Below the pieces are notes generated by a model that was not told where the DNA came from, ran no database searches, and saw only the letters and a program-made list of their open reading frames with translations. A stretch of 32,051 nucleotides of DNA. It comes from Saprospiraceae bacterium. GTDB lineage: Bacteria; Bacteroidota; Bacteroidia; Chitinophagales; Saprospiraceae. Below, piece after piece: positions 1,395 through 4,266 of the stretch. The stretch lies in NCBI GenBank assembly GCA_020631375.1, contig JAHDHJ010000013.1, positions 297 through 32,347 of the forward strand. Reading direction: 5' to 3'. How positions within the stretch are numbered: the stretch's first letter is position 1; every line of letters begins with the position of its first letter. Position numbers and translations under genes: made by a program.

Positions 1395-1727
1395 AGAAGC
1401 TGTTTGAATTTAACACTTAGGAATGGCGAACAAATAAATATCCAATCTTGACTTGTTTTTTTTTTGCAATTAGCTGCGTTAAAAGCCTCGTCGATGCCCT
1501 GCATCGCCTACGTTTTTTGCTTCGTTATTCACAAAAAATCCTACGCTAATTTTTGTACATTTATTTATACATCATTCCTTAGAATTTATTATGCTCCTTT
1601 TTTTATCATTTCCCACGCACCTTTGGCGTGGAAAGCTGTTCTCAAAATCCTGATTACGCTAAGACCTAACTTCGGTTTTGGTACCTCAACTATAACAATT
1701 TTCAAAAGCCAAATTAAAACAGCTTCT
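1395..1727. repeat. Non-coding MITE-like or structured element with terminal inverted repeats and an internal imperfect palindrome
   Basis: 1395-1411 AGAAGCTGTTTGAATTT versus reverse complement of 1711-1727 AGAAGCTGTTTTAATTT (16/17). Internal palindrome 1416-1582 centred on 1499 (CGATGC CCT GCATCG). Additional hairpin CCACGC(acctttg... )GCGTGG at 1613-1631. Confidence 0.65.
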
Positions 1728-3063: not shown

Positions 3064-4266
3064 TTAGAATTCCAATCTATCAACCACAGCCTTACCAACA
3101 GCTTTCACTGCATTCACGGCTACTGAATTGCCAAATTGTTTGTATGCTTGTGCATCCGAAACGGGAATTTGGAATTTATCCGGGAAGCCTTGGAGCCTTG
3201 CCCATTCCCTTGGAGTCATTTTACGAATCCCCTCTCTGTTGACCTTACCTTTGATATTGGTTTTCGGTTCAAAATCTTTCAATCGCTTATCTACTACTAG
3301 ATTCCTTTCCCTTCCCATTCCACCTACCAAAACAGCATTGGCAATACTATCATTCGGAATGATTTGGAAGCCGAAACCATTGCCTTTGTTCGCATGTCTT
3401 TCCCTATGTTGTCTGAGGCTTTCCAAATAAGATGTGGAAAGATAATATTTAGAGGAAACTTCCTGTTCTTCCCTTATATCCTTAAAGACTTTTTTCTCTG
3501 ACCAAGAAGTAGGATATTCAAAATCCTTTACTCCCGTACTCTTATGGAATCCAACAATGAATACCCTTTCCCGATTTTGTGCCAAGCCAAAGTCCTTTGC
3601 ATTAAGCACTTTCGGCTCGGGAACATAATATCCTAATTTATTCCTAAGGGTGTCTATGATCGTTTTTACTGTTTCTCCCTTATTATGACTCAATAATCCC
3701 TTTACATTTTCCAAAACGATTGCTTTGGGCTTTTTCTTTTTAATGATTCTCGCCACCTCGAAGAAAAGTATGCCCCTTGTATCTTGAAAACCTGCCCTAC
3801 GTCCTGCTATCGAAAAAGCTTGACAGGGAAAACCTGCCAAAAGAATATCATGTTGGGGTACTTCGTCTTCCTTTACTTTCGAAATATCTCCAAAAGGTAC
3901 TTCCCCAAAATTGAATTCATAAGTTTGCTTGGCATAATAATCAATATCCGAAGAAAACATGCATCGCCCACCCAATGTTTGGAAAGCAGTTCTAAACCCA
4001 CCTATACCGCAAAACAAATCTATGAAACTGAACATAGGTCGTGCCGGAGGGGGAAAAGGAATATCCCAAGCCACTTGTCGGATTTTCCTAATGTCCTTAG
4101 GTTCCAATCCCATTTCTCCAAGGTGTTCAAAAGCTTGTTTGATGAAATACCTAGAATGCTCTGTTCCTTTACTTTGCAAATAATGTGTTAGATAGGCTTC
4201 TCTATCTCCATCACCCTTAGCTGGTAAGGTTCTCCATTTCCGTCTTAATTCTGTATAGGGAATCAT
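3064..4266 (-). CDS. DNA (cytosine-5-)-methyltransferase, solitary in this window
   Basis: C5-MTase motifs FIDLFCGIGGF (I), GFPCQAFSIAG (IV), ENVKGL (VI), QNRERVFIVGF (VIII), REWARLQGFP (IX), QAYKQFGNSV (X). Confidence 0.93.
   Translation of the reverse strand: MIPYTELRRKWRTLPAKGDGDREAYLTHYLQSKGTEHSRYFIKQAFEHLGEMGLEPKDIRKIRQVAWDIPFPPPARPMFSFIDLFCGIGGFRTAFQTLGGRCMFSSDIDYYAKQTYEFNFGEVPFGDISKVKEDEVPQHDILLAGFPCQAFSIAGRRAGFQDTRGILFFEVARIIKKKKPKAIVLENVKGLLSHNKGETVKTIIDTLRNKLGYYVPEPKVLNAKDFGLAQNRERVFIVGFHKSTGVKDFEYPTSWSEKKVFKDIREEQEVSSKYYLSTSYLESLRQHRERHANKGNGFGFQIIPNDSIANAVLVGGMGRERNLVVDKRLKDFEPKTNIKGKVNREGIRKMTPREWARLQGFPDKFQIPVSDAQAYKQFGNSVAVNAVKAVGKAVVDRLEF

Follow-up and report, generated by a model that had tools for sequence, protein, structure and literature searches.

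Two nested miniature elements in a Saprospiraceae genome share a conserved hairpin core with an apparently undescribed superfamily

The window analysed here, a stretch of 32,051 nucleotides from a Saprospiraceae bacterium (assembly GCA_020631375.1), contains at positions 1395–1727 two nested non-autonomous elements (MITEs). The explanation that we favour, and regard as likely, is that both are MITEs of one superfamily, moved in trans by DDE transposases of the IS5 superfamily, with a fold that has been selected for their own spread. The outer element, probably the older, sits at a TAA, and the inner one entered a TTA within it, duplicating that TTA. Under the favoured scheme both would have been cut out and pasted in by IS5-superfamily enzymes supplied in trans, which are expected to recognise the terminal repeats and to favour TNA (CTWAG-like) targets. 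Superfamily members maintain a nearly constant size, close to 160 bp, and a single long hairpin with an asymmetric-loop core, which compensatory changes preserve mainly on one of the two strands; this would be accounted for if the structured strand folds in a single-stranded form, most likely transcribed RNA and possibly single-stranded DNA, and if this fold serves the spread of the element rather than a job in neighbouring genes.

Results

The initial annotation described the stretch as one 333-bp element with terminal repeats wrapped around a palindrome. Both parts of that description were recovered: the terminal repeats 1395–1411 and 1711–1727 are complementary at 16/17 positions, and when 1416–1582 is folded back about position 1499, Watson-Crick pairs occupy 50 of the 83 opposed positions (mean 21.9 and maximum 39 in 20,000 shuffles), with the predicted centre CGATGC-CCT-GCATCG at 1492–1506. 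What did not stand was the single element, as the borders read from the sequence delimit two, at 1396–1726 and 1420–1578. The features are as follows.

1393–1395, no strand: TAA, left target-site duplication of the outer element (sequence and homologous copies)
1396–1419, minus: left part of the outer MITE, terminus GAAGCTGTTTGAATTTAA, ending in the target TTA (sequence, aligned copies, model R1 on homologues)
1417–1419, no strand: TTA, left target-site duplication of the inner element (sequence; empty site CACTTAGAATTT in L062 and L072)
1420–1578, minus: inner MITE, GGAATG...CATTCC, 159-bp imperfect palindrome whose structured strand is the minus strand (copies, target-site duplications, fold, model R1)
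1459–1540, minus: conserved hairpin core with internal loop AACGAAGC / AACGCAGC and apical CGATGC-AGG-GCATCG in the minus-strand reading (model R3)
1579–1581, no strand: TTA, right target-site duplication of the inner element (sequence)
1582–1726, minus: right part of the outer MITE, terminus ...AAATTAAAACAGCTTC (sequence, aligned copies)
1613–1631, no strand: CCACGC...GCGTGG hairpin, private to the outer copy of the window (sequence; absent from aligned homologues)
1727–1729, no strand: TAA, right target-site duplication of the outer element (sequence and homologous copies)

The outer element, an interrupted MITE with ends GAAGCTGTTT.../...AAACAGCTTC and a TAA target duplication, reads GAAGCTGTTTGAATTTAACAC from 1396 and would measure about 168 bp without its insert; the inner one, of 159 bp, sits in its internal TTA, and both are thus short elements (<500 bp) with terminal inverted repeats. 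When the inner element and one TTA are removed, the remaining outer sequence aligns with uninterrupted outer copies from the host genome and relatives, and L062, L072 and L082–L084 run through sequence of the CACTTAGAATTT type without an insert. Because outer copies lacking the insert carry this empty site, it was the inner MITE that invaded the outer one, with duplication of TTA. Identity between the outer copy and the closest of its full paralogues is 67%, and the inner is up to 95% identical to many copies; the outer insertion therefore probably predates the inner. The flanks of homologous outer copies are likewise duplicated (TTA/TTA in L062 and L083, TAA/TAA in L086, L087 and L089), and GAAGCTGTTT ends recur on their own, about 165–170 bp apart in G001, G007 and G000:C101 and about 165–220 bp apart in G022. 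The CCACGC/GCGTGG hairpin that had been pointed out is present, but only in the outer copy of the window and not in its aligned homologues. The earlier statement that no credible gene lies here is borne out, as ORF 1464–1745 runs across the element borders, and no transposase gene is found inside the element.

Relatives of the outer family of about 41–89 bp, with the interior deleted and both GAAGCTGTTT-like ends kept, were seen at L064 (about 2000–2061), L065 (about 2001–2089) and L066 (about 2001–2041). Tandem hairpin elements with a single TWA between them occur at L424 82–436 and at G000:C273:17186–17506 (L309); a lone TWA between side-by-side elements means that elements insert at each other's target duplications.

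The suggestion of a miniature mobile element is supported by copy number, target-site duplications and the empty site. The search of the host genome found at least 40 places matching the part 1416–1582, though not the whole stretch, so that the inner type is not single copy, and another 23 full-length copies at about 85–95% identity. Target duplications were scored in 97 distinct GGAATG-type copies from the host and other genomes, among which the flanking 3-mers were identical in 71 and inverted-identical in 10; TWA stood on both sides of 78 copies, and in 69 of these the two sides agreed (42 TTA/TTA and 27 TAA/TAA), giving a reconstructed target logo of (C/A)TWA(G/A). Copy length was 155–161 bp in 71/97. 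Among the loci examined, no end pairs more than 400 bp apart, that is, no autonomous version, were found. Thus, all the features of a MITE that we examined are present: short length with terminal repeats, multiple copies, target duplication with an empty site, and no transposase. Collections of plasmids, phages and viruses, queried with the element of the window or with patterns drawn from it, gave no match.

Covariance models place the inner and outer elements in one structural superfamily. In the host genome, model R1 marks about 74 separate places (106 matches less both-strand duplicates), including the outer-element copy G000:C101:1038–1201; it scores the inner MITE at 136.8 bits on the minus strand vs 66.2 on the plus, and other outer homologues match as well, L062, L083, L084 and L088 on the strand equivalent to the minus strand of the window. 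Model R3 scores the core at 1459–1540 with 61 bits (E 1.5e-13), this sequence being itself among those from which R3 was built. At least ten terminus families can be read from the R1 places in the host genome, the families being GGAATG, GGGATGA, GGAGTAGG, TACGCAATTG, GACTTGTTC, GTGAAACG, GTAGTTAGTC, GAGTATGTT, GAGCATGTTT, GACTTTATTACG and GAAGCTGTTT. Members are mainly single hairpins, mostly of 155–166 bp and in most cases with TNA/TWA on both sides, and the asymmetric internal-loop motif ACnAGGC//AACGnAGT is common to the terminus families. Three copies of one family (L289–L291) are identical at unrelated sites and have therefore moved recently.

A structured RNA had also been proposed for this stretch, and strong covariation of the stems speaks for structure. 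Nearly all of twelve clusters formed at 75% identity fold as one long hairpin. When 18 divergent members are aligned, standard pairs fill 93% of pair cells vs 75.3 +/- 1.0% after shuffling and 39–49% when the alignment is slid, the slid control being somewhat flattering since the structure was taken from the same alignment. Double changes were found in 32/50 pairs of this alignment and in 42/44 pairs among 37 members with diverse termini, both counts being made in a manner that is not tree-aware. The oriented strand, which corresponds to the minus strand of the window, has a consensus (alifold) energy of -25.1 vs -8.1 kcal for the complement and is the more stable in 35 of the 37 members. At the 16 pairs that were predicted whichever strand was folded, there are 27 G-U vs 8 A-C, orientation having been assigned from the core motif, independently of G-U content. 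According to these predictions folding is chiefly on one strand, an asymmetry which fits RNA or single-stranded DNA alike.

Palindromes can become homogenised through template switching. The elements might therefore be ordinary terminal-repeat MITEs whose arms stay complementary through quasi-palindrome correction, their structure not being under selection. Some of the arm covariation could have this origin; however, mismatches in the internal loop are retained across families while the flanking stems change, which argues against correction as the sole cause, and the nearly fixed length and the excess of G-U over A-C on one strand also speak against this reading. We consider this explanation quite improbable.

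Hairpin folding specific to one strand would also suit an element of the IS200/IS605 or REP/TnpA-REP type, which a Y1 HUH enzyme processes as single-stranded DNA, and such enzymes with atypical flanking secondary structures do occur in Bacteroidetes (PMC6006769). However, 3-bp target duplications and an empty site are unexpected for Y1 elements, and copies show no replication-strand bias: in the complete genome G255, where sampled GC skew puts the origin near 1.5 Mb, 18 copies lie with the replication fork and 20 against it, and in the complete genome G161, where GC skew is weak, the numbers are 9 vs 7, all counted by hand from the listed strands. Lagging-strand, Y1-type transposition is therefore disfavoured. 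As neither the absence of target duplication nor the lagging-strand insertion bias that mark REP and Y1 (IS200/IS605) elements was found, we regard a Y1 origin as highly improbable.

It can be asked, too, whether the hairpins form a family of host regulatory RNAs, such as 3'-UTR stability elements or sRNAs, that merely resemble mobile DNA. Strong RNA-like covariation on one strand is compatible with it, as is the location of the sampled copies, intergenic in 44/44 cases by crude ORF calling. Yet the orientation of these 44 copies to genes is near random (17 sense, 12 antisense, 9 convergent, 6 divergent), and for lack of a clear bias a 3'-UTR function was considered and dropped. Insertion with target duplications, even inside another element, and the identical copies L289–L291 at unrelated sites likewise oppose a regulatory role, and Rfam gave no match at the gathering threshold. 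Such a role is improbable in our estimation.

Returning to trans mobilisation of MITEs, candidate movers were sought by collecting PF01609 transposase loci from the searched genomes and reading their ends. Transposases at loci with matching ends are IS5-family or related DDE enzymes (NF033580, NF033581 below its cut-off, PF13340, PF13359). The outer terminus GAAGCTGTTTGAATTT agrees at 13/18 positions with the IS ends GAAGGTGTTTAAAAAT and GAAGTTGTTTAAAAAT (L441, L129), where IS5_3 transposases are encoded. Further termini paired with IS5-family ends are GAGCATGTTTAAAATT with GAGCATGTCTAAAATT and GAACTCGTTTAAATTTTTT with GAACTCATTTAAACTTTTT, the latter at 16/18 within one genome, G161; the GACTTGTTCT and GACTTTATTACGA families have such matches too. 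In all, the outer and four other families have such ends, the remaining identities by family being 15/18 for GAGCATGTTT, 12/18 for GACTTGTTC and 13/18 for GACTTTATTACG. These matches span 18 bases, mostly between different genomes, and no more than 0.2% of 3,000 shuffled ends did as well as each of them, as the best of 14 candidate ends and uncorrected. The insertion sequences carry TAA on both sides in L129 and TTA on both sides in L325, and the two DDE_Tnp_4 elements have imperfect flanking repeats.

The outer element thus combines an IS5-family end match with a TNA-type duplication, as in an IS5-derived MITE. The inner GGAATG ends reach at best 10–11/18 with IS5-family ends, which is near chance and leaves them outside this class, and neither the PF01609 loci from the genomes searched nor end pairs more than 400 bp apart revealed a GGAATG-ended transposase or autonomous element; in the draft genome of the host itself, which is 88% complete, PF01609 matched nothing. 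The best-supported movers would be transposases of the IS5 type that act in trans, and for the inner family we infer an IS5-type mover from the TWA duplication alone. The possibility that the hairpin core is part of IS5 elements was rejected, for R2 matches in transposase loci adjoin an IS or, in one case (L131), are inserted inside it, and do not lie at IS ends.

GGAATG-type ends are present in several uncultured Saprospiraceae and a Microscilla. With strict filters, model R2 matched 14 of 396 genomes of the phylum, including seven of family f25, one of f59 and one of f49. Outside Bacteroidota, the core was found on plasmid records of Martelella, Mitsuaria, Diaphorobacter and Cupriavidus, with full-length matches of 160–161 bp on those of Diaphorobacter and Cupriavidus. 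The Martelella plasmid matches R2 at E 1e-14, with TTA/TTA flanks and two cores in opposite orientation, and Comamonas and Ensifer, which were left out when R3 was built, match it at E 7e-10 and 2e-8. Judged from these model matches, the hairpin core is conserved across phyla, in Bacteroidota and on alpha- and betaproteobacterial plasmids, with differing ends. In the Martelella plasmid pMM593 (L454 1447–1712) the two cores lie in an element of about 266 bp, TTA|TACCAAGGATCAG...CTGATCCTTGGTA|TTA; Ensifer L455 likewise has two oppositely oriented core matches.

Discussion

Such a distribution raises the question of what the core itself contributes. We put forward, tentatively and as possible rather than probable, a superfamily of mobile hairpins, spread across phyla, whose conserved structured core (ACnAGGC//AACGnAGT) rides with many different IS5-type ends, as a portable parasite module under selection for its structure and aided in its own mobility by its RNA or single-stranded DNA form. 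A further alternative would have a mobilising enzyme or host factor recognise the core, leaving the paired termini free to change and the IS5-like ends secondary. It would explain why motif and fold stay constant while termini vary over more than ten families, why the core is common to several phyla, and why there is covariation with folding on one strand. Against it, the terminal 20 bp of the GGAATG group are conserved in sequence, beyond pairing alone, several termini match IS5 ends, and elements in G333 join ends of the GGAATG...AATAAAT type to a different interior, as expected if ends are recognised. We therefore hold recognition of the core to be unlikely, and retain movement by IS5-superfamily transposases in trans as the favoured account.

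The G333 elements (L260, L266, L270) share the GGAATG...AATAAATG ends and are flanked by TWA, but enclose another interior, a CAGACATTCCTGTCTGTG palindrome, which suggests that ends alone may suffice for their mover. Their R1 matches were rejected as superfamily cores, since the interior differs and only the GGAATG ends are in common.

The nearest known analogue is ERIC, a 127-bp, intergenic, multi-copy imperfect palindrome of fixed size, which resembles the elements described here in its terminal repeats, short target duplication, one long stem-loop and lack of its own transposase (PMC2229807, PMC10969869, PMC2267715). ERIC differs in being a single family, which belongs to enterobacteria and vibrios and has TA at its termini, whereas here at least ten terminus families in one genome, TWA duplications and a length of about 160 bp are seen. 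Membership of ERIC in the superfamily is not supported, as R2 and R3 with filters off gave no match at the E. coli ERIC of L459. In that sequence (L459 260–385), AAGGC precedes and AACGCAG follows the inner stem, at places comparable to the internal loop of the superfamily; a distant kinship is possible, but this is a post-hoc likeness and only a lead, the R3 result not being significant.

MITEPsy1 of Pseudomonas syringae, which has IS5-like ends and CTAG or YTAA duplications and whose transposition has been demonstrated (PMC3189936), and the Porphyromonas gingivalis MITEs BrickBuilt and MITE239, whose ends are common to IS5-family ISPg elements (PMC4596501), are like the superfamily in their IS5-like ends, but a structured core common to families of different ends does not figure in the portions of these descriptions available to us. 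YPAL/RU-2 of Yersinia (~168 bp) is palindromic, intergenic and of near length (PMC2229807), and differs in its target duplications of 3 to 26 bp, termini without TA and single family. PIF/Harbinger elements share the TWA target duplication, and their PHIS transposases have a bacterial relative in IS5 (PMC4482050), but these elements are eukaryotic and, in the accessible part of that account, are described without such a core. In the literature searched, mostly open-access papers with preprints excluded, no account of the superfamily was found, and this large group is apparently undescribed.

Bacterial MITEs are usually viewed as internally deleted insertion sequences with an irrelevant interior, whereas here the ends vary and the interior fold is conserved. 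The core model provides a search tool for a widespread repeat class, and the old question about ERIC-like palindromes, namely whether their fold serves mobility or gene control, becomes testable.

Several minor observations concern the assembly and the rest of the window. Many host contigs terminate inside elements of the inner-family kind. The contig starts, at G000:C191:2–46, with the right end of a further copy of the inner family. Ten consecutive N immediately precede the window, which opens at 1–24 with CCCAAACCCC repeats, and a scaffold gap is probable there. On the minus strand at 3064–4266, a 400-aa ORF may encode a DNA cytosine methyltransferase, as judged by eye.
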